This document shows positions 4,830 through 21,466 of a DNA stretch of 64,000 nucleotides, piece by piece. The stretch covers positions 1 through 64,000 of the forward strand of contig SVGS01000003.1 of the NCBI GenBank assembly GCA_015056205.1, given 5' to 3'. The notes under the pieces were generated by a model. It worked only from the letters and a program-made list of their open reading frames with translations, had not been told where the DNA came from and did not search any database. The translations under genes and the position numbers were made by a program. Source of the stretch: Clostridiales bacterium. GTDB lineage: Bacteria; Bacillota; Clostridia; Christensenellales; Aristaeellaceae. Position 1 is the stretch's first letter, and every line of letters starts with the position of its first letter.

Positions 4830-6383
4830 ATGGCCCGTCAGAAGAAGGACGATCCCATTGAAAACAATGTCGTAATCTACGCCCGCTATTCTTCCCACTC
4901 CCAGACGGAGCAGTCCATTGAGGGCCAGCTTCACGACTGTTATGCCTACGCGGAGCGGAACGGTTATCAGGTGGTAGGCGAATATATCGACCGTGCGCTG
5001 ACCGGCACGAAGGACGACCGTCCTGATTTTCAACGGATGATCCGGGATGCCGAAAAGCGTCAGTTCCGCTTCGTGCTGGTCTGGAAGCTGGACCGTTTCG
5101 CCCGGAACCGGTATGATTCAGCTTTCTATAAAAATCACCTGCGGAAAAACGGCGTCAAGGTCCTTTCCGTCATGGAGAATATCCAGGACACGCCGGAAGG
5201 GATCATCCTGGAAGGGATGCTGGAATCTCTGGCTGAATACTATTCCGCCAACCTCTCCGAGAATATCAGGCGCGGCCTGAAAGCCTCCGTTGCGAAGGGC
5301 TGGTATTGCGGCGGATCCGTCCCGCTTGGGTATAAGATTCAGGATCACAAGATGGTTCCGGATGAAAAGACGGCTCCTCTCATCCCGGAGCTGTACCGGC
5401 GTTATGCCGACGGTGAAAGCCTTGCCTCCATCGCGGAGGATTTCAACGCCCGCGGCTACCGCACGAATCGCGGCCGCGCCTTCAAAACTTCCACCTTTGC
5501 CCGGATCGTTCCCAACTCCGCCTATATCGGGGAATACGTCTATGCCGGCGAGGTCGTCCCCGGCCTGGCCACGCCCCTGATCGAGCGTGCCCTGTATGAC
5601 CGCGTGCTGGCCCGGCGGGATCAGAACCGCCGTGCTCCCGCCGCTTCCACCGCGACCGTTGACTTCCTGCTGAGCAGAAAGCTGTTCTGCGGCGTCTGCG
5701 GCTCCCCGGCCTGCGGCGACGCCGGAACCAGCAAAAGTGGAGAGCGCCACTATTATTATTCCTGCAGCGGCCGGAAGCATCACCGGACAGCCTGCGCCAA
5801 AAAGGCTGAAAAGAAGGATTTTCTCGAATGGTATATCTGCGAGCAGACCGTTGAATACGTCCTCAGCCCTGAGCGGATCGATTATATTGCGGAACAGGTG
5901 GCCCAGGCCGCCGGCGCGGAGAACGCCGAAACCCTCTCCGCCGTGAAGGACGCCGAAAGGCGTGCCCAGCGCCTGGACGATGAAGTGAATTCCCTTATGG
6001 ATAAGCTGATCTATGCCCCGAAGGAAGCCGCCCGGAAGATCTGCGAGCGGATGCAGCTGCTGGAGCTGCAGAAAACCGACATCCAGAAAGAACTTGCCCG
6101 TCTCCGGCTGCGGTCGAAGTGCCAAATCACGAAGAAGGAAGTTCTTGCCTGGCTGAAGCGCTTCACCAAAGGGGATCTGTTCGACATGGATTTCCGGTCC
6201 CGGCTTATCGATACCTTTATCAACTGCGTTTATTTCTATGATGATAAAGTCGTCATCTTCTACAACATAAAAGAAGGCCGCCTGACCTGCAAGATTGATC
6301 AGATCGGCGACCTTGACGAGAAGATTGAGGCCGTCCAAAGGTGTTCGACTTTGGACGGAAATGGTGGAGATGAGGGGAGTTGA
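4830..6383 (+). CDS. Large serine recombinase (integrase of the element)
   Basis: A 517-residue site-specific recombinase that would integrate and excise the element. Residues 14-22 (VVIYARYSS) carry the resolvase active-site motif, with the nucleophile probably S21, and VLVWKLDRFARNRYD holds the catalytic arginines. A Recombinase domain follows (about 160-270, VPLGYKIQ ... FNARGYRTNRG), then a zinc ribbon (LFCGVCGSPACGD ... YYSCSG ... C) and a coiled coil (about 370-440), the standard large-serine layout. ATG follows AGGAGG. The last codons (NGGDEGS, stop at 6381-6383) are read antisense through the 3' end of ssrA, so this C-terminus depends on the integrated state. Confidence 0.95.
   Translation: MARQKKDDPIENNVVIYARYSSHSQTEQSIEGQLHDCYAYAERNGYQVVGEYIDRALTGTKDDRPDFQRMIRDAEKRQFRFVLVWKLDRFARNRYDSAFYKNHLRKNGVKVLSVMENIQDTPEGIILEGMLESLAEYYSANLSENIRRGLKASVAKGWYCGGSVPLGYKIQDHKMVPDEKTAPLIPELYRRYADGESLASIAEDFNARGYRTNRGRAFKTSTFARIVPNSAYIGEYVYAGEVVPGLATPLIERALYDRVLARRDQNRRAPAASTATVDFLLSRKLFCGVCGSPACGDAGTSKSGERHYYYSCSGRKHHRTACAKKAEKKDFLEWYICEQTVEYVLSPERIDYIAEQVAQAAGAENAETLSAVKDAERRAQRLDDEVNSLMDKLIYAPKEAARKICERMQLLELQKTDIQKELARLRLRSKCQITKKEVLAWLKRFTKGDLFDMDFRSRLIDTFINCVYFYDDKVVIFYNIKEGRLTCKIDQIGDLDEKIEAVQRCSTLDGNGGDEGS
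6331..6358. repeat. Ten-base inverted repeat at the element/ssrA junction
   Basis: CCGTCCAAAG - 8 bases - CTTTGGACGG, perfect arms, ending four bases before the tmRNA 3' CCA. It lies inside the recombinase reading frame. It could be part of the attachment site (serine recombinase sites are imperfect palindromes around a short core) or a weak hairpin after ssrA; there is no U tract on either strand, so ordinary termination is unlikely. Confidence 0.6.
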
Positions 6384-6708
6384 ACCCCTGTCCGAAGATC
6401 CATTGACAAGACTTTCTCCGAGCGCAGTCCATGGTCAGATTTTCCGACCGCCCTGTCCACGGACAAGCAGTACGGCCGGTAGCTTCATGATTACGGGATC
6501 AGCTGCAAAGCTTAGGCTGACCTCGTTCCCTGCGAAAATGACGCCGGGATCCTGATCCGCAGGTGATCAGGGCCGACGCGCAGCATTAAGCCGCGAAAGC
6601 GAACTGGTTTTTGTCAGTTCTTTTTAATTTCCCCGTTTGTAACGCAGTACAGGGCCTGCGGCTCGCTTATCCGGCCTCCGCTATCCCCGTCGAAACCGGA
6701 TCATCCCC
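6362..6708 (-). ncRNA. ssrA: Transfer-messenger RNA (tmRNA)
   Basis: The RNA is 347 bases. The 5' end GGGGATG pairs with the 3' CATCTCC to form a seven-pair acceptor stem containing the G3-U70 pair that marks alanine acceptance, followed by A and an encoded CCA (6362-6364 on the plus strand read TGG). The T arm (AGGGG-TTCAACT-CCCCT) and the 5' TTTCGAC landmark are present. The internal reading frame ends at TAA with peptide ...TDKNQFAFAA, a normal proteolysis tag; the resume codon is not certain. It follows smpB by 28 bases. Rescues stalled ribosomes. Confidence 0.95.
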
Positions 6709-9462: not shown

Positions 9463-10875
9463 ATGGCTTCCCGGGCCTCTTCAGGTCAGCAGACGAAGTC
9501 CGATCTGGTGATCGGCCTGCTTTCTCTTGTCCTGTATCTGTTGCTGGGCGCTTCATTCTTCTTCTGTCTTTCTCTGAACAATATCTTTCTTCGCGTGATC
9601 AACCGTACCCTGGCGACCACGCTGCTGACTTTTGTGGCCATGTCTCTAGCCATGCACGCGGTTTACGGTGGATATGATGTCGGCCGCAGAAAGCCGAAGC
9701 CGGTCATTTCCGCAATGATCGCCGGTACCGTCATTACGGATCTGGTTACCTTCCTGCAGCTGCAGATCATGAACGTCAACGCTCACTATAACGATCATCT
9801 GACGCTGATCGGCCCGGATACGCTGCTGCTCCTGCTCTGTATGGTGGTTCAGTGCGTGCTGATCATAATCTTTGTCCGCGTCGGAAATCAGCTGTATTTT
9901 AAAATGAATCCGCCGCGCAGCTGCCTGGTGATTCTCGGATCCCCGTCCCAGGAAAAATCGCTGCGGGAGAAAATCGGCCGGTATCAGCTCCAGTGGCGGG
10001 TAGATGAAGTGGTTTTATACAATGTTCCCGATCTCGAAAGCCATATAGAAAAGGCTGATGTGGTTTTCTTGGGGCAGCTTCCGGAAGGAGCGAAATTCGC
10101 TCTCCTGAAAATGTGCTATGATGATCGGAAAGATGTTATGTGCAAGGCGCAGCTTCAGGATATCATGCTTTGCAACGCCAACCCGGCCATTGTGGATGAT
10201 TCCGCTTTCCTGGCGATGGAGTATAATAAAATCACATACAGCCAGCGTCTGATCAAGCGGGCCGGCGATGTGATCGTTTCCCTGCTGGCGCTTCTGCTGC
10301 TTTCGCCCTTTGTGGTTCTGATCTCCGTTCTGATTCATATGGAGGACGGCGGCGCGGTTATTTTTCGCCAGTCCCGGCTGACGGCAGACGGCAAAACCTT
10401 CACCATCCGGAAATTCAGAACCATGACCCAGCTGAGTGAATCCGCCGCTCTCCAGCAAAGCAGCACGGTGAACGACCCCAGAATTACAAAAATCGGAGCC
10501 TTTCTCCGCCGCTTCCGGCTGGATGAAATTCCCCAGTTTTTCAATATTCTGATCGGCGATATGAGTCTGGTCGGTCCACGGCCTGAAATGATGGCCAACG
10601 TTTTACGCTATAAGATTGAACTGCCTGCCTTTGTATACCGGGAAAAGATGAAGGCCGGTCTCACGGGATATGCCCAGATCGAAGGAAGATACAATACATC
10701 CGCCGAAGACAAGCTCATGCTGGATATGATGTACATCGAAAGCTTTTCAATCTGGCTGGATGTCAAGCTGCTTCTCCGCACATTTACCGTTCTGGCCAAG
10801 GCTGATTCAACCCAGGGCTTTAACGCAGCTCCGGTTCGAAATAATATTACAGAAGAGGAGAAAAGGAAAACATGA
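9463..10875 (+). CDS. Polyprenyl-phosphate sugar-1-phosphate transferase
   Basis: A 470-residue integral membrane enzyme that would start a surface polysaccharide by moving a sugar phosphate from a UDP-sugar to undecaprenyl phosphate. The N-terminal 140 residues contain four membrane segments (SLVLYLLLGASFFFCLSL and onward); a cytoplasmic middle domain follows (CLVILGSPSQEKSL); the C-terminal catalytic domain (from about 264, KRAGDVIVSLLALLLLSP) contains FRQSRLTADGKTF, KFRTM and the signature GDMSLVGPRPEM. The layout is that of WbaP/exopolysaccharide glycosyl-1-phosphate transferases. No flippase or polymerase is nearby. The substrate sugar is unknown. Confidence 0.92.
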   Translation: MASRASSGQQTKSDLVIGLLSLVLYLLLGASFFFCLSLNNIFLRVINRTLATTLLTFVAMSLAMHAVYGGYDVGRRKPKPVISAMIAGTVITDLVTFLQLQIMNVNAHYNDHLTLIGPDTLLLLLCMVVQCVLIIIFVRVGNQLYFKMNPPRSCLVILGSPSQEKSLREKIGRYQLQWRVDEVVLYNVPDLESHIEKADVVFLGQLPEGAKFALLKMCYDDRKDVMCKAQLQDIMLCNANPAIVDDSAFLAMEYNKITYSQRLIKRAGDVIVSLLALLLLSPFVVLISVLIHMEDGGAVIFRQSRLTADGKTFTIRKFRTMTQLSESAALQQSSTVNDPRITKIGAFLRRFRLDEIPQFFNILIGDMSLVGPRPEMMANVLRYKIELPAFVYREKMKAGLTGYAQIEGRYNTSAEDKLMLDMMYIESFSIWLDVKLLLRTFTVLAKADSTQGFNAAPVRNNITEEEKRKT

Positions 10876-11789
10876 AAACCACACTGTTAATTATGGCAGC
10901 CGGTCTGGGCTCCAGATACGGCGGAAACAAACAAATCGACCGGATTGGTCCAAACGGCGAAATTCTGATGGAGTATTCCATTCATGACGCGGTAGAGGCC
11001 GGTTTCAACAAGGTCGTGTTTGTCATCCGGAAGAGCATGGCCGATACTTTCCGTGAAATGATCGGGAACAAAATCGCGCAAAAAGTGGAAGTTCATTATG
11101 CCTTCCAGGAATATGATACGCTGCCTGACGGCTTTGTTCCCCCGGCTGACCGGAAGAAGCCTTATGGTACCGTTCATGCCGTCGTTTGCGCAAAGGATCT
11201 GATTCAGGAGCCTTTTGCCGTGATCAATGCCGATGACTATTACGGAAAAGATGCCTTTGTGGCCATGGCCGCGTCCCTGAAACGCCTGCGGGAAGCGGAA
11301 AGCAAGGGAGAAAACCACGCTTCCATGGTAGCTTACTATCTGAAGAATACAATCTCGAAGAATGGCCATGTGACGCGCGGCATCTGTTCGACCGATGCGG
11401 AAGGCCATCTGGTTAAGGTCGTTGAAACCTACAGCATTCTTCCCTTCCCGGACGGCACCATTCGGGATATCAACGATGATCCGAACGGCGTCATTCTCGA
11501 TCCGGAAGCCCTGGTTTCCATGAATCTCTGGGGATTTGCTCCCTCCTTCTTCCAGGCAGGCGAACAGTATCTCGCGGATTTCCTGAAGGATGACAGCGCC
11601 GATCCGCTGAAAAAGGAATGTCTGCTGCCTGCTCTGGTGGATCATGAAATGCATACGCACGGCCTGCAGGTTGAAGTGCTTTCCACGCACGCCGTCTGGT
11701 TTGGCGTAACCTATAAGGAAGACAAGGAATATGTCACCGCGGAGCTGAAAAAACTGCACGATAACGGCAGTTATCCTCCCGCCCTCTGA
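10872..11789 (+). CDS. Sugar nucleotidyltransferase family protein
   Basis: A 305-residue protein with the nucleotidyltransferase fold: LLIMAAGLGSRYGGNKQIDRIG (abbreviated landmark AAGLGSRYGG, residues 8-17) replaces the usual GxGTRxxP...K loop, and NADDYYGKDAF (about 118) supplies the metal-binding aspartates. The family transfers an NMP to sugar-1-phosphate or other phosphates; this subgroup is commonly only annotated as nucleotidyltransferase. ATGA overlap with the upstream sugar transferase and galE 26 bases downstream point to nucleotide-sugar supply for the same polysaccharide. Substrate not deducible. Confidence 0.85.
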   Translation: MKTTLLIMAAGLGSRYGGNKQIDRIGPNGEILMEYSIHDAVEAGFNKVVFVIRKSMADTFREMIGNKIAQKVEVHYAFQEYDTLPDGFVPPADRKKPYGTVHAVVCAKDLIQEPFAVINADDYYGKDAFVAMAASLKRLREAESKGENHASMVAYYLKNTISKNGHVTRGICSTDAEGHLVKVVETYSILPFPDGTIRDINDDPNGVILDPEALVSMNLWGFAPSFFQAGEQYLADFLKDDSADPLKKECLLPALVDHEMHTHGLQVEVLSTHAVWFGVTYKEDKEYVTAELKKLHDNGSYPPAL

Positions 11790-11815: not shown

Positions 11816-12835
11816 ATGAAGATTCTGTTAACGGGCGGAGCCGGATTCATCGGCTCCCATACCTGTGTGGAGCTTTGCGAAGCCGGGCATGAACCGGTCA
11901 TTGTTGATAATTATGTCAACAGCTGCGAGGAAGCCGTTCACCGGGTAGAGCAGATTGTCGGCCATTCTGTTCCCCATTATAAAGCGGACGTCCGGGATGC
12001 TGAGGCAATGCATCATATCTTCAGTGAAAACAATTTTGACTGCGTTGTCCATTTCGCCGGTCTGAAAGCGGTTGGGGAAAGCGTTGCACAGCCCCTTCGC
12101 TACTACCGGAACAATTTGGATTCCACGCTGACACTCTGCGAAGTAATGCAGGCGCACGGCGTTAAACGTATTGTCTTTTCATCCTCCGCTACCGTTTATG
12201 GAAACCAGCCTGTCGTACCGTATCGGGAAGATATGCCTTCGATCGGATGTACCAATCCCTATGGCTGGACCAAATTCATGATCGAAAAAATCCTGGAAGG
12301 CCAGTTCAACGCCGATCCTGAATGGAGCGTTGTGCTTCTCCGGTATTTTAATCCGATCGGCGCCCATCCTTCCGGTCTGATCGGTGAAGATCCCTCCGGA
12401 ATCCCCAATAATCTGATGCCTTATATTGCCAAGGTAGCTGTTGGGGAACTCGAAAAGCTTTCTGTTTTCGGAAATGACTATCCAACGCCGGACGGAACCG
12501 GTGTCCGGGATTATATTCATGTGGTGGATCTTGCCAAAGGCCATGTCAAAGCCTGTGACTTTGCCTCCGGGCGGACCGGCTGTGAAGTGATCAATCTGGG
12601 AACCGGTCATGGCTATTCTGTGCTGGATCTCGTAAACACCTTCCAGTCCGTAAACCAGGTGAAAATCCCCTATGTCATTACCTCCCGCAGGCCGGGAGAT
12701 ATTGCCGAAAACTATGCGGATCCTGCCAAGGCAAAGAAGCTTCTCGGCTGGACTGCGGAAAAAACACTGGAGGACATGTGCCGGGATACCTACCATTTTC
12801 AGCATCTGAACCCCAGAGGATATCACGGTGACTGA
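11816..12835 (+). CDS. galE: UDP-glucose 4-epimerase
   Basis: A 339-residue short-chain dehydrogenase/reductase enzyme interconverting UDP-glucose and UDP-galactose (or the N-acetyl forms). NAD-binding GGAGFIGSHT at residues 7-16, the SSSATVYG serine segment, and the catalytic Y149-x-x-x-K153 (NPYGWTK) are all present; RYFNPIGAHPSGLIGEDP and DGTGVRDYIHV are GalE hallmarks. Length is standard. It closes the cluster started by the polyprenyl sugar transferase. AAAGGAGG precedes the ATG. Confidence 0.96.
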   Translation: MKILLTGGAGFIGSHTCVELCEAGHEPVIVDNYVNSCEEAVHRVEQIVGHSVPHYKADVRDAEAMHHIFSENNFDCVVHFAGLKAVGESVAQPLRYYRNNLDSTLTLCEVMQAHGVKRIVFSSSATVYGNQPVVPYREDMPSIGCTNPYGWTKFMIEKILEGQFNADPEWSVVLLRYFNPIGAHPSGLIGEDPSGIPNNLMPYIAKVAVGELEKLSVFGNDYPTPDGTGVRDYIHVVDLAKGHVKACDFASGRTGCEVINLGTGHGYSVLDLVNTFQSVNQVKIPYVITSRRPGDIAENYADPAKAKKLLGWTAEKTLEDMCRDTYHFQHLNPRGYHGD

Positions 12836-12889: not shown

Positions 12890-15800
12890 ATGAATCTGCT
12901 GGTGATCGGAGACCGATCGGCTTCTCTGGTTCCTTCCCTCCTTGGTGCCGTCTGTGCCGGAATCGGCGGAACGATCCGGAACCTGAACCTGTTCTGCCTG
13001 AACAGAACAGAACGGGAAAACACCCTTTCAGAGCTGACGGAAGATTTAAATCAATGCCGGAGCGCCTTTCTGAAGCAGCCAGATTCGCCTGTTTTCACGA
13101 CCTGTTATTCCTTCGCTTCCGCCTGTTCTTCTCTGCCGGATTATCAGAATCTCATTCAAAATGAAAAGGATCAGCTTTTGCTCTCCGCCCTTCGTGGGCG
13201 GGGAATTCCTCTTTCTTTTCAAGCTGACTGGGAAGCCGTATCCTGGGTTTTTTCTGCGATGATAACCTCGCAGTCTCCGTCTCCCGCTCTTCTGAAGCTG
13301 AAAAACTGGCTGACCGGTCTGCAGGCCGGGGAAGATCGGCCGACCCGGCTGACCCTTCTTTTTGATCCCTCCGATCCATTCGAAGCCGGGACTGCGCTGG
13401 CTTTAATTCGTTACCTTCGTTCCGGTCAGCCGGAAAGCAGTCTCTTTCTGTCTCTGCTGGCCATTCAGGACCCGAACAGTACCCGCTTAAAGGATTCAGC
13501 AGATACTGCCCGCGCTTTTCTTCAGGCAATTCAGGACGGCGGTCTTCTTCGCCGGCTGGACGGAGAGAAGACGGAAGGAGCCGATGCTCTGTGGCTGCTG
13601 TCCCTTCCCTCCTCCCTGGCTGCCGGTTCGGATCTCCGTCAGCTGCTGGCGCTTTCCGCCGTCCGGGTTCTGGGCATTCTGGAAAGGCCGGACAAGCTTC
13701 CTGCCTGTGGTCTCCATATCCGTACCATGCCCGGTTCGTTATCCTGGAGAGTATTGGAAGGAAGTGCTGACACTGCGCTGGCGTTTTTTCAGACTTCAGT
13801 CTGGTTTGTGTCGGAAATATTTCCTTTTCTGCGTGGCAGACAAAACGCCGAAAGCGGCCGACGGGATTCCTCCTTCAAAAACAGCCTGACACGCCAGATC
13901 CAGAAAAAAGGCGATCAGAATCCTTCTTTTTACCAGTCCGCCGAGTCGCTCGAACGGATCATTCGCTTTATTCTGGCCCAGACTGTTTCCGTTATCCGTT
14001 CTCTTCCTTCTTCTCTTCTTCCGTCTGAAGAAAATCTGTCACGCTGGAAGGCGGCCGTTTCGGCCTGCGGGCGGGCTGTAACCACCGCTTCCGAATTGGA
14101 TGTTTCCGTCCAGGAAGCAAAAGACTCCGGTCTGGATCAGGTCATGCCCGTTCACAGGGTATCCATGGCGGATACCGAAGAGGAAGCAATGCTCCGCAAG
14201 CTGGATGATATGGAGAGCCGGCTGGAGCAGGAAACGGCTGAACGGGAGGAAGCGCTCCGGGCTGTCGGCGGTGCCCGCGGCATCCAGGCGCTACAGGATT
14301 GCCGTCATAAATGCCTGAAGGCGGCTGAAGCGGCCCGCGAACAGCTGCAGCGCCTGATGAATTCTCCTGATACGGAACACCTGACCCTCCTGGCTGTGGA
14401 AAGAAGGCTTCGCCGGCTGAATGCGGCGATCCTCCGCTGCGATCAGGATCTGGCCGCGCACCTTCGGGCGGACCGTATCGGAGAAGCTCCGTCTGCCCTG
14501 TCCTCCGATATCCCGGCCGATGCTTCTCCTGTCTCGCTGACTGTGCTTGAGACGCTGGAACGTCTGCTTCAGCAGCCGGGCCTGTCTTCAGCGGAAAAGG
14601 ATCTTCGGGATCAGCTTCCCCGTCTTTTGCCCTCTATCTCCTTTTCGGATGAAAAGGCCACAATCCGGCGAATCATTAAGCATCCGGATTGGAACGGTAT
14701 CCATAATCTTGCCGGAGTTTTCCTTCTCTTCTTCCATGTCTTTACCGAAGATCTTTCAGAGGTTAAATGGACTGTCGGTGAACCGCTGCCTGACATTCCT
14801 CTGCTTCCGGATCTGTATCCCGCGGACCCTGTTGTTACCATTCCGGACCTTCTTTCCCTCTTTCCGGACCACCAGGATCCTTCTTTCATCGCGCGCAGCC
14901 GCGGCCTTCTTGCCTTCCTGCTGCTGAAGCAATACCGGCGGACTCCTGCGGAAGAGGGCCGGCTGGCGGTCGAAGAACTGACTGCCGGACAATCTCCGCT
15001 TGTTTCCGCCTGGCTTTCGCAGCATCGGGCGGAAAGCGTCCGGATTGTTTCCATTGTTCAGGACAGTCAGTCGCTTCCGTTTGCTCTGATTTTGCCCGGA
15101 AAGGCCCTGACCCCGGCACATCTCAGCCGGGATCACAGTTCCATGATTCCGTCGTATATCTCCTGGTTTCACGCCTCAACGAATGAATTCGAAGATCCGG
15201 GGAATACCCTCAGTTCCGTGGAACGCAGGCTTCTCCTTCACCTGCTGGATCAGCTGGCCTCACAGGAAGAGCCGGCCGTTTACCAGGGGCTCCGCTCATT
15301 CTTCAGCGATTTTGCGCTCGCTCTGCGGCAAAACGATCCCGGAGAAAACCGGAAGGATTCCCACCTGACAGAATTATTAAAATCAGTCTGCGGCCTGCTT
15401 CATCTTCCCGCATATCGCGCTGTGCTCCGGCGCAGGGAACTGCCGTATGAGGCTTCAGTCCCGGAAGATGTTCTCTGTTCCTGCCTTGCCGGGAAACCGG
15501 TCAGCCCGGCTGTTCTGTCACCCGGAACCATGGACTCGCTGTATTACTGGAAAGATCTTCCCTTTGCCCGGGAGGATTCCCTTCACATACTCGTCGGAAT
15601 GAAGACCGCGGAACAGGACTATATTCTGAATACGCTGGATCAGGAATGCGACGTCCTGATGGATGCTTCGGACGATTTCCGCGATACCTTAACCCATTAT
15701 CTGCTGCTCCTGCGTGAACGCTTTCCGGACGCTTCGCCTGAAGCCCTGAAGGAATTAAATCATCTTCTCACAAAAACCGGCAAACCCCTCAGCGGAAAGA

Positions 15801-18097
15801 AACCCAAATTAACCTGGCCCTGGGATCCGTTTTCTCCTTCCATCCGGACAGTTATGACGGAATGTCTTGGAGAAGCACTGGCCGGCCCCGCCCTGCAGCC
15901 CTTCAGCGATCTTTTGCTGTGCTTTCCCGCCCGGGGCGGAGAGGTTATCGGCGATTCACTGATGAGCAGGCTCTGCGTTGTGCAGGCTCAGAATCCTCCG
16001 GTTCAGGAACAGGAAGATCAGCAAAGAGAAGAAAACGCTGATTCCGCGGAACGTACGGGCGCTGCCGATTCCGTTCTTCCGCCGATGGCTCCGGAATTTG
16101 CTTCCGCTCTTTGCCGGTCTCCGGAGGGACGCACCCTGATCAAGGATGGGCTTTGGTCATTCCGCCGAATGGAGGATGGCGGAATCCGCGCTGTCCTGAC
16201 TCTCGATGGTTCCTTTTCCCTGCAGCTGATCCGGAATTATGAAGAAGCTGAGATCCGTTCCCTCTACGCCCATGACCTGCCGACACTCGCGGTCTGGCCG
16301 AATGTTCCTTTTCTGCCGGAGGACTGGCATGCATATTTTGTCTATTGCCATGCCGCCGGCAACTCGCTTGGTATTTCGGTTATGCTGGAAAACGGGACCC
16401 GGTCCGACCTGGAGCCGGCCGTTCATGAGCGGTCTGTAACGCGGCTGGAGACCTGTCCCGTCTGTCTGTTTTTCCGGTGGGAAAGCCTCTCCGCGGGTGC
16501 TCTGTTCAATCTGCTTCCCCGTCCGGATCTTCCTTCGGGAGGCCCGGTTACCCTCTGTGCTGATATCGGCTCTTCCGCTTCCTCTATGATCTTTTCCGGT
16601 CCCGGCGGGATCAGCCCTCTCCGCGGCGTTTCCCAGGTTCGGGTGCTTCTGAACAATCCCGCCCGTTCCAGAGATCTTTTGCGAAAAGAATTTATACCGG
16701 TTGACGCTGTGTCTTCCCTTTTCCCGGCTGTGATCCGTTTCCTGCTTCCTGCATCCGCAAAAGATCCCGTACCTTTGCAGGATGGCGTTCTGCTGTCTGT
16801 CTCCGGTCTTCGGGAGGCGCTGGAGCTGCCGCCGGAAGCCCTGTATGCCTGTATGAAATGGGATGATCTCAAGGGAAGGGCAATGAAAATCTGCCTTCAT
16901 CAGATGATGCTTGAGGCCGCCCTGCAGGCCCGGATCAGCGGTGCCTCCTCCGTCAGCTGGCGGTTTGCTGTTCCGGACGAAATGGCGTCTGAAGGCCGGG
17001 AATATCTGGGAAATCTTCTCCGTCATACGGCCGAAACGGTTCGTATGGAAAGCGGTTTCCCTCTTCCTGCCCGCGGGCCCCTGGTTTCTTTCGGTTCTGA
17101 AAGTCAGGCCCTGGGATCTTATTTCCGGTTTTGTGAGCCGGAAGAAACCCGTGGCGGCCTGATGGTTCTGGATCTCGGATCCTCAACCGCCGATCTCTCG
17201 CTGACGCTGCGGGGGCGCAGCCAGGCGGACTGGGCGGTTCAGCTGCCCATGGGCATCCACTATCTCCTTTTGCCGCCCCTGCTGGCCGATCCGGCCCTGC
17301 TGCTGAATGAATTTGGGTTCATACCGGAGGAATCTTTTCAAAACGGGCTCGGAGCCTTCCACAGGATTCTGACCGCGGCCCGGACAGATCCTGCTTCTCT
17401 TCGCCAGGCCCGTCTGGCTCTGGATGCCTTCGTCGCGGACTTCGGTCCCCTCCTGTCCTCTGTCATCGGTTCCGGCCTCCTGTCTCCGGCTCCCGGCCTG
17501 CTTTCCGCCCGGCTTCTTTTCTCTTTTGCCTTCCTGATGATGCTCGCCGGCCTGATGCTTCTGCAGGTTGCATCCGATCCGCTGCAGAATGATTTTCTCC
17601 CGGATCAGATGGGCTTGTTCCTCTCAGGCCGTGGATCTTTCCTCGTTCAGGCCCTTCCGGATCCGGTTCGCCAGGGTCTCTGGCGGATTGCCAACATGTT
17701 CCGGAATCCGCGGGTCGGGAATCTTCTCCTGCTCTTCTCCTCTGAGAAGAAAATGGAAATTCCGGCAGGTCTTTCGACTCTGTCCGGTCTGCAGGAATCT
17801 CTTCCAAGACCGCCGACGGTTCCCTCTTCCTTTCCGGTTCGGCTGGAGGAACTGCTTCCTGAGTTTCTGCTCTGCTTCCGCAATGCTTTTCCGTCCGCTG
17901 CGGATCTCCTGTTCCGCGGTTTCTTCACACCTGATTTTTATCATCCCTTCTCCTCCGCCGGAGAAGCGGTTGTGTCCGCCTCCATTCAGCAGATCCACAG
18001 CCAGATTCTCTCCGGCGGATCCGCGGCCCATGCGTATACGGTTTTGTCTTCCTGGCCGGATACCCTGCTGGAAATGATTCGTGAAAGCGCTTCCTGA
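12890..18097 (+). CDS. Giant protein of unknown function with ASKHA (actin/Hsp70-like) motifs
   Basis: A 1735-residue cytoplasmic-looking protein without signal peptide. The N-terminal 330 residues form an alpha/beta region (MNLLVIGDRSASLVPSLLG, later TLLFDPSDPFEAGTALALI) that loosely recalls a degenerate Rossmann or tubulin-like domain. About 420-520 is a coiled coil (EEEAMLRKLDDMESRLEQ). 530-1030 is unrecognised; 1030-1062 is an acidic linker. From 1220 on there are ASKHA motifs: phosphate-1 CADIGSSASS (D1225), phosphate-2 VLDLGSSTADLSL (D1428, T1433, D1435), adenosine GLFLSGRGS (about 1576-1583). A hydrophobic stretch (about 1548-1565, LLFSFAFLMMLAGLMLLQ) lies just before it. It stands between galE (54 bases) and a TrmH gene (27 bases). 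Actin-like ATPase or chaperone role is inferred only. Confidence 0.85.
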   Translation: MNLLVIGDRSASLVPSLLGAVCAGIGGTIRNLNLFCLNRTERENTLSELTEDLNQCRSAFLKQPDSPVFTTCYSFASACSSLPDYQNLIQNEKDQLLLSALRGRGIPLSFQADWEAVSWVFSAMITSQSPSPALLKLKNWLTGLQAGEDRPTRLTLLFDPSDPFEAGTALALIRYLRSGQPESSLFLSLLAIQDPNSTRLKDSADTARAFLQAIQDGGLLRRLDGEKTEGADALWLLSLPSSLAAGSDLRQLLALSAVRVLGILERPDKLPACGLHIRTMPGSLSWRVLEGSADTALAFFQTSVWFVSEIFPFLRGRQNAESGRRDSSFKNSLTRQIQKKGDQNPSFYQSAESLERIIRFILAQTVSVIRSLPSSLLPSEENLSRWKAAVSACGRAVTTASELDVSVQEAKDSGLDQVMPVHRVSMADTEEEAMLRKLDDMESRLEQETAEREEALRAVGGARGIQALQDCRHKCLKAAEAAREQLQRLMNSPDTEHLTLLAVERRLRRLNAAILRCDQDLAAHLRADRIGEAPSALSSDIPADASPVSLTVLETLERLLQQPGLSSAEKDLRDQLPRLLPSISFSDEKATIRRIIKHPDWNGIHNLAGVFLLFFHVFTEDLSEVKWTVGEPLPDIPLLPDLYPADPVVTIPDLLSLFPDHQDPSFIARSRGLLAFLLLKQYRRTPAEEGRLAVEELTAGQSPLVSAWLSQHRAESVRIVSIVQDSQSLPFALILPGKALTPAHLSRDHSSMIPSYISWFHASTNEFEDPGNTLSSVERRLLLHLLDQLASQEEPAVYQGLRSFFSDFALALRQNDPGENRKDSHLTELLKSVCGLLHLPAYRAVLRRRELPYEASVPEDVLCSCLAGKPVSPAVLSPGTMDSLYYWKDLPFAREDSLHILVGMKTAEQDYILNTLDQECDVLMDASDDFRDTLTHYLLLLRERFPDASPEALKELNHLLTKTGKPLSGKKPKLTWPWDPFSPSIRTVMTECLGEALAGPALQPFSDLLLCFPARGGEVIGDSLMSRLCVVQAQNPPVQEQEDQQREENADSAERTGAADSVLPPMAPEFASALCRSPEGRTLIKDGLWSFRRMEDGGIRAVLTLDGSFSLQLIRNYEEAEIRSLYAHDLPTLAVWPNVPFLPEDWHAYFVYCHAAGNSLGISVMLENGTRSDLEPAVHERSVTRLETCPVCLFFRWESLSAGALFNLLPRPDLPSGGPVTLCADIGSSASSMIFSGPGGISPLRGVSQVRVLLNNPARSRDLLRKEFIPVDAVSSLFPAVIRFLLPASAKDPVPLQDGVLLSVSGLREALELPPEALYACMKWDDLKGRAMKICLHQMMLEAALQARISGASSVSWRFAVPDEMASEGREYLGNLLRHTAETVRMESGFPLPARGPLVSFGSESQALGSYFRFCEPEETRGGLMVLDLGSSTADLSLTLRGRSQADWAVQLPMGIHYLLLPPLLADPALLLNEFGFIPEESFQNGLGAFHRILTAARTDPASLRQARLALDAFVADFGPLLSSVIGSGLLSPAPGLLSARLLFSFAFLMMLAGLMLLQVASDPLQNDFLPDQMGLFLSGRGSFLVQALPDPVRQGLWRIANMFRNPRVGNLLLLFSSEKKMEIPAGLSTLSGLQESLPRPPTVPSSFPVRLEELLPEFLLCFRNAFPSAADLLFRGFFTPDFYHPFSSAGEAVVSASIQQIHSQILSGGSAAHAYTVLSSWPDTLLEMIRESAS

Positions 18098-18124: not shown

Positions 18125-18892
18125 GTGGAAATGATTCAGTCCGTTAAAAACCCGAAGGTACAGCTCTGGCGGTCTCTTCGCGACGCGAAGGGACGAAAGC
18201 AGTCCGGTTCCTTTCTGGTGGAAGGCGTGCGCCTGGTCCGGGAGGCGCTGCTGTCCTCCTTCCCGGTCCGGGAAGTCCTCCTGCGGGACGACTTTCAGGC
18301 GGATCCGTCGCTGATTCCGCTGCTGAACGGTAATTTCCCCGTTTATCGTCTCGCTGATCATGTCTTTCAGTCCGTCTGTGACACAAGGACGCCGCAGGGC
18401 ATTGCGGCGGTTCTTGGCGTCCGGACGCTTCCGCTGCAGGGCAGTGCGCTGATCGCGCTGGATGGAATACAGGATCCGGGGAATCTGGGCACCATTATTC
18501 GCACCGCAGACGCGGCCGGAATGAACGGCGTGCTGCTAAGTCCGGAATGTGCGGATCTTTTCTCCCCCAAGGTGCTCCGGGCTGCCATGGGCAGTGTTTT
18601 TCACCTTGGTTTTTCTTTTCCGGAGCATCTGGATCAGGCCTTGATGGCGCTGAAGGAAAAAGGCTTCTCCATTCTTTCGTCCCAGCTGGACGGAGAGCCT
18701 TTTTTCAACCGCCGGAATGTCCGTTCTTCCTTTGTTCTTGTAATCGGCAATGAAGGAAACGGGGTTTCCGATCCCGTCAGACGGATCGCGACCCACCGGC
18801 TCTGCCTGCCCATGGCCGGCAACGCTGAATCCCTTAACGCGTCCGTGGCTGCCGGAATCATGATGTATGATCTGATGCGTTTTCCTTCCTGA
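18125..18892 (+). CDS. TrmH/SpoU-family RNA 2'-O-methyltransferase
   Basis: A 255-residue knotted (SPOUT) methyltransferase. GTG 18125 is the start, nine bases after AGGAG; ATG 18131 is too far. Residues 1-95 are the SpoU substrate-binding domain (SVKNPKVQLWRSLRDAKGR); the catalytic knot carries the three motifs: DGIQDPGNLGTIIRTADAAG, VLVIGNEGNGVSDPV, and LPMAGNAESLNASVAAGIMMYD. It adds a 2'-O-methyl group to an rRNA or tRNA ribose using S-adenosylmethionine; the target (RlmB-like G2251 or another) is not decided by these motifs. Follows the giant ASKHA gene by 27 bases. Confidence 0.92.
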   Translation: MEMIQSVKNPKVQLWRSLRDAKGRKQSGSFLVEGVRLVREALLSSFPVREVLLRDDFQADPSLIPLLNGNFPVYRLADHVFQSVCDTRTPQGIAAVLGVRTLPLQGSALIALDGIQDPGNLGTIIRTADAAGMNGVLLSPECADLFSPKVLRAAMGSVFHLGFSFPEHLDQALMALKEKGFSILSSQLDGEPFFNRRNVRSSFVLVIGNEGNGVSDPVRRIATHRLCLPMAGNAESLNASVAAGIMMYDLMRFPS

Positions 18893-18913: not shown

Positions 18914-20377
18914 TCAGTCAAAAACTGCCGGCATGAAACGCATATGTTTCATGAAGGCCAGATGAAATTCCCTTTCTCCTCCCAGGGGAATCGGCTCCGT
19001 TCTCTCTGCCAGAGAACGGATTTCTTTTTTACCGGCCTCACTGCGAAGCAGCGCAGCACCTGTCAGAGCCGCATTGCCGAGGACTTTGGTCACGGAAATC
19101 AGTCTTTCCGGCCACAATCCGATCCGGGCTGCGGAAACCGGATTCATGCCATACCCAAACCCGCCGCACAGGAAAGCCGCCCGGATTTCATTCAATCGGG
19201 TCGACGAAACCTCCAGCAGCCGTTCCAGACCGGCCCCGAAAGCCGCTTTTGCCAGCTGCACGGCCTGCAGATCCTCCTGTGTCAGCCCGATCCCATCCCT
19301 GAGAATCAGAGGCCTGAGCAGACGTCCGTCCTCATCTATCCATCCCAGATTCAGCCCGCAGGCCACCGCGTCAATCACACCGGAGCCGCAGATTCCGACC
19401 GCAGGACTCCCGTCTATCGTTCTTGCAATGATTCCGCCGCCGGTTGGAATCACCCTGTCAATTGCGCCGGATACAGCACCGCATCCATGCCGGATGCCCG
19501 CGCCTTCCAGCGCCGGCCCCATGGAGACCGAGGTTGCATAAAGTCTTCCCTGCTTCCACAGCGCCATTTCTCCGTTGGTTCCCGCATCGCAGAGCAGCGC
19601 GGTTTCTCCGCTCCGTTGTATGCCCGAAGCCATCACGGCACACAGCAGATCCGCCCCCAGAAAACCGTGAACGCAGGGCGGAAGATAGGCCGGTGTACCG
19701 TCAAAAGATATTGTTTCATCGAACAGACAGTCCGGCCGGAAGGGAGCCTGTCCAAGCGCGTACGGATCATGTCCCGCAAACAGATACAGCATCGCCGTAT
19801 TTCCGGTAATGATCCAACGCCGGACCGAACCGTTTAGATCTTCTGTCCGGATCAGTCCTTTCAGAGCCTCCCGGATATCACGCTGAAGCTTTTCCGGTCC
19901 ATGGGTGGACGCATAATGAATCCGCCCGATCACATCGTCTGAAACCGAGCGCTGCGGATTCATTCCGCCTGCGGAAAACACCGGCCCCGCCGTTCCCTCC
20001 TGATACAGGCTTACAGCCACGGTCGTTGTTCCGATATCGGCTACGGCGGTCAGCAGCTTTTCATTGGCGGAATTCAGTTGCTCCCGCTGAGGCGTGTCCC
20101 GCAGAATCCGCATTTCCCGCTGCCCGGGTAGAATAATTTCCGCATCCCCGAGCAGGCGGGTCCGGCAGGAAAGCCGGAATCCCAGCGCGGTTTCCCGCGG
20201 GCTCATTTCACTCAGTCTTCCGGTCACGGAAACCCTGCACTGTCCGCAGATCCCGCGCCCGCCGCAGGGGTGTGCCGGACCGCCGGATTCTGTACTCAGC
20301 AGTTCCCGGATGGTCGGCGTGCCCTGAAAGGAGATGATCTTCTTTTCATCTCCCCGGATGATGGTCAGAGTCGGCAT
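18914..20377 (-). CDS. 2Fe-2S ferredoxin/ASKHA protein, corrinoid-activase (RACE) family
   Basis: A 487-residue protein. Residues 1-90 are a plant-type 2Fe-2S ferredoxin: C38, C44, C47 (HPCGGRGICGQC) and C71. After a linker comes an ASKHA ATPase-like domain (AVADIGTTTVAVSLYQEG near 110-127, ALLCDAGTNGEMALW near 260). This is the layout of RamA/AcsV-like activators that use ATP to re-reduce inactive cob(II)alamin in methyltransferase systems; here the C-terminal extra 4Fe-4S domain of RamA is absent. No corrinoid protein or methyltransferase is in the window. Last gene of a leftward operon, 15 bases after the secreted protein. Confidence 0.88.
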   Translation of the reverse strand: MPTLTIIRGDEKKIISFQGTPTIRELLSTESGGPAHPCGGRGICGQCRVSVTGRLSEMSPRETALGFRLSCRTRLLGDAEIILPGQREMRILRDTPQREQLNSANEKLLTAVADIGTTTVAVSLYQEGTAGPVFSAGGMNPQRSVSDDVIGRIHYASTHGPEKLQRDIREALKGLIRTEDLNGSVRRWIITGNTAMLYLFAGHDPYALGQAPFRPDCLFDETISFDGTPAYLPPCVHGFLGADLLCAVMASGIQRSGETALLCDAGTNGEMALWKQGRLYATSVSMGPALEGAGIRHGCGAVSGAIDRVIPTGGGIIARTIDGSPAVGICGSGVIDAVACGLNLGWIDEDGRLLRPLILRDGIGLTQEDLQAVQLAKAAFGAGLERLLEVSSTRLNEIRAAFLCGGFGYGMNPVSAARIGLWPERLISVTKVLGNAALTGAALLRSEAGKKEIRSLAERTEPIPLGGEREFHLAFMKHMRFMPAVFD

Positions 20378-20392: not shown

Positions 20393-21466
20393 TCAGGGAG
20401 CCGTATAGCGGTCCGTCCAGGTATATCCGCATCCTGCGCACCGGTGAATCGTGTATCCCCAGTGTGAACCCTCCGCCTCAACAACGGTCTCCTCGACAGC
20501 AGGACTTTCGCATCTTTCCGGCCTCAGTACCTGATCCGTTTTCCGTGTTTCATCCCGGGTGAAATAATCCCGGTTGTTTCTCAGTCTGCCGGGTTTCGTC
20601 AGCTTTTCTCCGATCACGCCGGCGCAGTAAGCCCTTCGGTCCTTATTATCTTCAAAAAAACGGATCCGGCCGGTTACGGTATTATCCGTTACCCTGCCTG
20701 CGGAAGCATTCTGGCCGCAATGATAATACATTCCCACCAGTCCGCCGTTATGTACGTATCCGTGGCAGGAATCGTAGCCGTCCACTTCCACGGCGCATCC
20801 CGTCACGGTTCCGATCCCGCAGGCCAGTATTCCGCCCATAAACTGCTCGCATTTCTGATTCAGCTGCCGGTCCTCAAAGATCATCTCCACGCGGGCGGTA
20901 CATCTGTCGAACGTTCCGTTTCCGTATCCGATCAGGCCGCCTGTGCCGGCCATAATCCCGTAGCTGATCAGGCTCACACGCCCATGTACCGAAACGTTCT
21001 GCACCAGCGTCTGATCGCTCCAGCCGGCGAGAACAGCGGCAAAGCAGTGGCTTTCGCACTCCGGCTGCACCTGCGCGCCGACGATCCGAAGATTGCGGAC
21101 CGTCGCCCCCCGCAGAGCGGAAAACAGTCCTGCGGCGGCGATCTGATAGTCTTTCAGATTTCCGTCCTTCGCCGGGCATGGTTCCGTCCCAGGCCGGCGC
21201 ACCGTCAGATTGTACAGGGCGTGCCCGTTTCCCTCCAGCGTTCCCGAAAACGGAATCGGAACCCAGTCTGTTCCGGAAAGATCCAGATCCTCCTGAAGGC
21301 TCCAGATCCCACCCGGATCATCAGCGATTGCCTGCAGATCCCGCGGCGTATGAATCTCGTGAATGACACCGGAGGATTCCGCACAAGCCGGGTAAACGAG
21401 AACCGCCCGCAGAAAGAGAAAAGTCAGAGCGCAGACCAGAGCAGCCGTATTTCGCAGATTTCGCAT
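20393..21466 (-). CDS. Secreted beta-helix-like protein with GLUG-type repeats
   Basis: A 357-residue exported protein. Residues 1-29 are a signal peptide (basic MRNLRNT, hydrophobic ALVCALTFLFLRAVLVY, cut near ACAES). The mature part opens with IHTPRDLQAIADDP and WSLQEDLDLSGTDWVPI, and continues with turns such as GLFSALRGATVRNLRIVG, GGLIGYGNGTFDRC and GGLVGMYYHCG, the GLUG-type coils of a right-handed beta-helix surface protein. The C-terminus has paired cysteines (HRCAGCGYTWTDRY). Two bases separate it from the M16 peptidase gene and 15 from the ferredoxin/ASKHA gene. Ligand unknown. Confidence 0.75.
   Translation of the reverse strand: MRNLRNTAALVCALTFLFLRAVLVYPACAESSGVIHEIHTPRDLQAIADDPGGIWSLQEDLDLSGTDWVPIPFSGTLEGNGHALYNLTVRRPGTEPCPAKDGNLKDYQIAAAGLFSALRGATVRNLRIVGAQVQPECESHCFAAVLAGWSDQTLVQNVSVHGRVSLISYGIMAGTGGLIGYGNGTFDRCTARVEMIFEDRQLNQKCEQFMGGILACGIGTVTGCAVEVDGYDSCHGYVHNGGLVGMYYHCGQNASAGRVTDNTVTGRIRFFEDNKDRRAYCAGVIGEKLTKPGRLRNNRDYFTRDETRKTDQVLRPERCESPAVEETVVEAEGSHWGYTIHRCAGCGYTWTDRYTAP

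Follow-up and report, generated by a model that had tools for sequence, protein, structure and literature searches.

The locus and its 1735-codon gene

The window analysed here, a stretch of 64,000 nucleotides, carries on its forward strand an open reading frame of 1735 codons that starts with ATG at position 12,890 and runs to 18,097. The nearest known relatives of the source genus are ruminant-gut bacteria. A preliminary description of this DNA had given the frame and the positions of three nucleotide-binding motifs, all of which we confirmed. The features on which our analysis draws are listed below with their basis in brackets.

9,463–10,875, forward strand: bacterial sugar transferase (PF02397) that opens an apparent operon (Pfam E 1.7e-59; synteny)
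10,872–11,789, forward strand: nucleotidyltransferase, 4-base overlap with the sugar transferase (Pfam NTP_transferase)
11,816–12,835, forward strand: NAD-dependent epimerase, ending 54 bases before the fused gene (Pfam Epimerase)
12,890–18,097, forward strand: fused gene, tubulin-like, coiled coil and actin-like, 1735 residues (frame, homologues, split-gene profiles)
12,890–13,834, forward strand: putative degenerate tubulin-like core, residues 1–315 (split-core profile, hhalign)
12,899–12,943, forward strand: site of the lost tubulin T1 loop (intact relatives: GGTGNK) (alignment)
13,349–13,420, forward strand: site of the lost tubulin T4 signature (intact relatives: FGGTGASG) (alignment)
13,835–14,689, forward strand: putative helical region and coiled coil, residues 316–600 (aligns with split tubulin-like proteins)
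14,837–18,052, forward strand: actin-like protein, residues 650–1721 (homologous to a separate downstream gene in other genera)
15,989–16,075, forward strand: variable acidic linker, about residues 1034–1062 (alignment)
16,556–16,576, forward strand: phosphate-1 motif CADIGSS, from residue 1223 (D = 1225)
17,162–17,194, forward strand: phosphate-2 motif MVLDLGSSTAD, from residue 1425 (D = 1428)
17,615–17,638, forward strand: adenosine-type motif LFLSGRGS, from residue 1576 (SGRGS at 1579)
18,125–18,892, forward strand: SpoU-type RNA methyltransferase, beginning 27 bases after the fused gene (Pfam, synteny)

The sugar transferase, the nucleotidyltransferase (which we take to be GalU-like), the epimerase (presumably GalE-like), the fused gene and the SpoU gene thus all lie on the forward strand, spaced by −4, 26, 54 and 27 bases, and the fused gene apparently forms an operon with the first three. 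The second gene after it, on the reverse strand (18,914–20,377), encodes a RACo-type protein recognised by Pfam RACo_C_ter, a family itself described as an ASKHA domain. Next on that strand (20,393–21,466) is a protein of 357 residues whose start is signal-like. It matches nothing in Pfam at E ≤ 0.001 and is conserved beside RACo in the homologous locus L032. At the other side of the operon, a serine recombinase gene (4,830–6,383, forward strand) terminates inside the tmRNA gene (6,362–6,708, reverse strand), in the 3′ end of the latter, and small phage-like frames lie to its left. This stretch (4,830–6,708) looks like an element that has integrated at the tmRNA gene.

The frame of 1735 codons is a genuine gene that is conserved and evolves under purifying selection. 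Its copy in L032, a metagenome-assembled genome from yak jejunum, encodes a homologue of 86% identity and served as the reference for dN/dS, which we computed with our own Nei-Gojobori script. The overall ratio was 0.16, with 0.19 for residues 1–330 and the lowest value, 0.08, for residues 1215–1600 within the actin-like module. The highest value (0.58) fell on residues 1031–1075, which hold the variable acidic linker; an acidic linker had been recognised in the preliminary description.

Pfam and NCBIfam gave no useful match to the full-length protein; a Pfam match to ZapD (E 0.29) is too weak for any use. AlphaFold2 models were of too low confidence to be used for both residues 1–606 (mean pLDDT 40.5) and residues 640–1735 (mean pLDDT 34.9). 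In a sequence search against solved structures neither half gave a significant match: the best hit of the C half was BiP (E 1.8), and the N half met chance coiled coils (from E 0.041 upward) and, at E 0.84, an Asgard tubulin. A candidate paralogue in the same genome (C17:28185, 88 residues, E 7.1e-4, three internal TGA codons) was judged a chance match because no frame of at least 90 residues there matched the query and the profile found a single place in the genome.

Fusion of two adjacent genes

Single-sequence searches in 100 genomes from the bacterial family, in which remote copies may escape, returned matches in 21 genomes including that of the window. Copies from the same genus matched over their full length, and in other genera the N-terminal and C-terminal parts of the query matched separate frames. 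We therefore surveyed 21 loci, namely those of 19 of the 20 other matching family genomes (G084 was left out) and two further ones. Iterated profiles found both parts in all 21 loci and in the window. They lie in a single frame in the window and in L031, L032, L047, L048 and L049, and in two frames in the remaining 16 loci. In 21 of 21 loci the N-part is either in one frame with the C-part or upstream of it on the same strand. The split frames abut or overlap, with the exception of L044, where 0.9 kb separates them.

As the iterated profiles had already seen the window, the test was repeated with profiles built from split genes of the same bacterial family alone. These matched the window protein in its N part with an E-value of 5e-39 (residues 3–572) and in its C part with 1.6e-174; nothing was found at E ≤ 10 in 400 shuffled copies, two reversed copies or the other frames of the window. 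These comparisons demonstrate that the protein arose by the joining of two neighbouring genes, one tubulin-like with a coiled coil and the other actin-like. The preliminary description missed this composite origin. What it had called an orphan has relatives in other genera, families and phyla, and its roughly 1000 unrecognised residues resolve into two pieces: a tubulin-like protein with coiled coil, and the N-terminal half of the members of another protein family.

Within the window's genus, 38 of 45 genomes contain a match, among them all 13 that are at least 90% complete. Full-length frames of 1716–1828 residues are present in 34 of these 38, and the other four have shorter frames of 954, 1330, 1338 and 1589 residues. 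In a tree of the C-part, a long branch with a support of 1.000 separates 32 fused rows (of which L125 and L126 duplicate L032 and L031) from 20 split rows. Judging from this tree, the fused copies are one clade, the window's genus, and go back to one fusion event. L038 was left out of the tree and of the C-part alignment; its actin-like gene (G002:C27, 6,416–9,625) is interrupted by TAG codons in frame, three of which fall within the search match; this may reflect decay or a reassignment of TAG in that lineage.

In wider surveys, 9 of 200 genomes of the order and 3 of 398 of the phylum had a match to the C profile, the window genome being counted and one of the 3 being an FtsA-like match. That match, found with a profile of the 21 C-parts, is to a protein beside FtsZ (L073, genome G501); it is weak and was dropped from the family because of its FtsA-like appearance and its position directly before an FtsZ-like frame. 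Four distant loci lie on contigs that extend far enough upstream, and in all four the tubulin-like gene comes immediately before the actin-like one. Six matches came from a plasmid collection, and the three examined (Gloeothece, Picosynechococcus and Prevotella) all showed the same order of N before C, with the next gene in Prevotella matching the C profile weakly (E 1.9e-7). No match was found in the viral contigs searched. The split pair is thus present in other families, in Cyanobacteria and in Prevotella. Both halves of the family were matched by profile in the cyanobacterial copies L152 and L154, which carry the same Pfam signals as Synechocystis Sll0445 and Sll0446 (see below). The split pair is already known in outline; for the fused form a search of the open-access full-text literature found nothing, and we know of no natural protein that joins the tubulin-like and actin-like superfamilies.

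The actin-like and tubulin-like halves

Judged by motifs and profiles, the C part is a protein of about 1050 residues with an actin/FtsA/MreB-like module, which bears out the ASKHA module of the preliminary description. The phosphate-1, phosphate-2 and adenosine-type motifs occur in this order and are kept across the C-part alignment, where the phosphate-1 and the phosphate-2 aspartate are each conserved in 20 of 21 copies. Distant relatives reach the models of known families: L072 scored above the MreB_Mbl cut-off (28.4 versus 27), and the cyanobacterial copy L154 matched FtsA at E 4.8e-5, below the FtsA cut-off. With hhalign, the distant and cyanobacterial C-proteins matched MreB with 97.9%, FtsA with 95.8% (against a loosely drawn control set of 30 rows that probably includes some MreB-like ones), DnaK with 35.6% and FtsZ with 0.1%. 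The fused C group alone reached 49% for MreB and 8.1% for the same FtsA set. The window C part shares the three ASKHA motifs with FtsA and MreB but is far larger, with about 570 residues without recognised fold before the module.

A comparison with SrfB, a large protein with an actin-like core, had also been drawn loosely. We rejected membership in this family (PF07520), as neither the window protein nor the relatives scanned gave a Pfam match. A search for PF07520 in 101 genomes of the order was negative as well; since the control genomes were equally silent, it is uninformative by itself. The closest described counterparts are instead the FtsZl1 operons and the Synechocystis pair Sll0445–Sll0446 (see below).

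The tubulin-like part of the fused protein comprises residues 1 to about 600 and appears to be of the FtsZl1/Tubulin_2 kind. Helices in residues 316–600 were seen in the low-confidence model only, and this region aligned across the N-parts. Residues 1–315 matched a profile of split cores that contains no fused member with an E-value of 2.1e-16, a comparison in which none of 500 shuffles scored at E ≤ 10. By hhalign, the fused cores matched the split group with decayed loops with 98.7% and the group with intact GTP loops with 95.9%, and split cores matched intact cores with 99.9%. Among the 22 N-parts, seven matched Tubulin_2 (PF13809; best 2e-7) and five the tubulin GTPase domain (PF00091) at E ≤ 0.01. 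L040 (30.9 bits) and L152 (40.8 bits) exceeded the Pfam cut-off of Tubulin_2 (27 bits), and L040 matched an annotated cyanobacterial tubulin-like protein at E 2e-18.

Comparisons that skip these intermediates count against this identity. The N part of the window had no Pfam match and hence none to Tubulin_2. The Tubulin_2 Pfam model likewise gave no match among 21 relatives of the window, as would suit a decayed domain. A profile of distant and cyanobacterial tubulin-like proteins did not find the window, their hhalign probability to the fused N group being 0.4–1.9%, and none of the N groups matched true FtsZ (11% at most). A profile of the intact members mainly reached the helical half of the window protein (residues 300–571). 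The tubulin identity is therefore transitive, along a chain from fused via split decayed-loop and intact cores to Tubulin_2, and common ancestry of the window N-terminus with tubulins is supported through these intermediates only. This lends support to the earlier hunch of a decayed tubulin-like N-terminus.

The T1 and T4 loops are both intact in 6 of the 22 N-parts, and both are lost in all six fused copies aligned. Among the 16 split genes, nine have also lost both loops and one (L037) has kept T4 alone. Loss of the GTP loops in split genes indicates that it preceded the fusion or happened more than once.

Related systems, partner genes and a possible role at the cell surface

The FtsZl1 (Tubulin_2, PF13809) family was described by Makarova and Koonin in 2010 (PMC2875224). 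According to the passages of that paper on the family, it has an N-terminal FtsZ-like domain, a long coiled coil and a helical end, a layout that the window family may share, and its operons contain membrane-linked proteins, the named partners being vWA, kinase, GTPase and OmpA-like proteins. Unlike FtsZl1, the window copy has lost the T4 loop GGGTG(S/T)G. In the main text of PMC2875224, the word actin appears in general passages only.

In Synechocystis, according to PMC9880817, Sll0445 (Tubulin_2), Sll0446 (FtsA domain) and Sll0447 (DivIC domain) associate with photosystems and with two pilus proteins, Slr2015 and Slr2018, and phototaxis is reported to be impaired when any one of the three genes is interrupted. 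The genes sll0443–sll0449 are given as a single transcription unit in a passage of PMC2633013, and altered levels are noted for a comFB mutant in PMC12313861 and for a lexA mutant in PMC4759255. In L152 and L154 the Pfam signals come in the order seen for Sll0445–Sll0447, with DivIC being weak (E 0.004 and 0.33). By gene order and Pfam domains, Sll0445/Sll0446 are apparently the same pair as the window family: in both, a tubulin-like gene is followed by an actin-like gene of about 1100 residues, fused to a single frame in the window. The Synechocystis proteins are separate, whereas the window protein is one chain that has lost its GTP loops and belongs to a genus in which the lipoprotein described next was not found.

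In the relatives with intact loops, the split pair follows a lipoprotein gene and usually a small membrane protein gene as well; next to the fused gene, neither turned up. A homologous large lipoprotein-like gene lies nearby in all six intact-GTP-loop loci (partial in L052), and a small protein with a hydrophobic stretch in five of the six, signal and hydrophobic stretches being assessed by eye. In 4 of 4 distant loci there is another set of lipoprotein-like genes, related to the first (hhalign 97.8% between the two). A lipoprotein-like gene also lies upstream on the same strand in Picosynechococcus and on the other strand in Gloeothece. The sequences of these proteins include DATQNM, DGTPSM or DGSGSM, which by eye resemble the vWA MIDAS motif, in keeping with the vWA partners of FtsZl1 operons as named in the passages of PMC2875224; Pfam gave no vWA match in the lipoprotein-like partners of the relatives. 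In the fused genus, the lipoprotein profile found nothing in 43 of 45 genomes and matched in the signal region only in the other two; none of the 13 good genomes has it, so that no vWA-type operon partner was found there. In three distant genomes (L068, L069 and L070), a membrane/coiled-coil protein and then a large Sel1-repeat protein (Pfam E 3.4e-11 in L070) are encoded downstream of the actin-like gene.

Taken together, we consider it likely that the fusion of the tubulin-like and the adjacent actin-like gene has yielded a membrane-associated scaffold that organises cell-surface machinery. The fused chain would be one cytoplasmic scaffold at the membrane, a fixed 1:1 version of a former two-protein complex. 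Its pseudo-tubulin and coiled coil may serve docking and self-association and would have lost the usual mode of GTP binding, and the actin-like part would bind and hydrolyse ATP to switch the assembly state. The machinery organised by the assembly would most likely be type IV pili, the export of surface polysaccharide, or both. A pilus or surface role is suggested by the apparently equivalent Sll0445/Sll0446, which the passages of PMC9880817 report to support pilus-driven phototaxis. The window genome encodes a PilT-family protein above cut-off. In a hand count within the 100 family genomes, PilT was present in 15 of the 21 genomes that have the split or fused genes and in 33 of the 79 that lack them (Fisher p 0.026), or in 8 of 9 genera with and 22 of 41 without (p 0.067), both ignoring kinship; we regard this co-occurrence as weak. 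The more specific notion of a single-chain tubulin-actin machine at the envelope, with a pseudo-GTPase domain on an ATP-driven domain and one nucleotide cycle replacing two, strikes us as evenly poised.

The pilus role may also have been lost, such that the fused protein serves surface polysaccharide synthesis only and positions the initiating sugar transferase of its apparent operon. Besides the gaps in the window, this possibility draws on the neighbours kept across the 21 loci, in fused and split genera alike: the epimerase (galE) lies upstream in 12 and the sugar transferase in 11. An RNA methyltransferase is likewise kept downstream in nine, so adjacency by itself proves little. Epimerase, sugar transferase and methyltransferase are, however, absent at all six intact-GTP-loop and all five distant loci (L052 and L071 being short contigs), and the link of the sugar genes to the fused gene is therefore not original. 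We hold this alternative to be possible but doubtful.

It is unlikely that the N half is an unrelated alpha/beta and coiled-coil protein, leaving the C part alone recognisable. Such a reading would account for the lack of a Pfam match in the window N part and of a direct match to FtsZ or the distant tubulin-like proteins, but not for the match of residues 1–315 to split-gene cores, the Tubulin_2 matches among the relatives or the constant position upstream of the actin-like part. Still less probable is a second cell-division pair, that is a fused analogue of FtsZ/FtsA, even though these too are a tubulin-like and an actin-like protein with adjacent genes and the C part is FtsA/MreB-like. The window genome has its own FtsZ (C1:21345, above the PF00091 cut-off), directly preceded by an FtsA match (C1:20120, E 1e-38, below the TIGR01174 cut-off), so the fused gene is not the cell's only tubulin/actin pair; moreover, the tubulin GTP site is lost, and the single-sequence search found matches in just 21 of 100 family genomes. 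A functionless, decaying relic, as the lost GTP site and the missing lipoprotein partner could imply, is highly improbable given the dN/dS of 0.16, the full-length frames in 34 of 38 matching genus genomes and the presence in 13 of 13 good ones.

The two major superfamilies of filament-forming proteins are the tubulin-like and the actin-like ones. Living genomes present a series that leads from two genes with both nucleotide sites via two genes with a decayed tubulin site to a single fused one. That the two were fused also argues for one physical complex in which the tubulin-like partner of FtsZl1-type operons works together with the actin-like one, and the fused chain offers structural work 1735 residues at fixed stoichiometry. 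Thus, a poorly understood system that is widespread in Firmicutes-type genomes, Cyanobacteria and Bacteroidota becomes directly testable.
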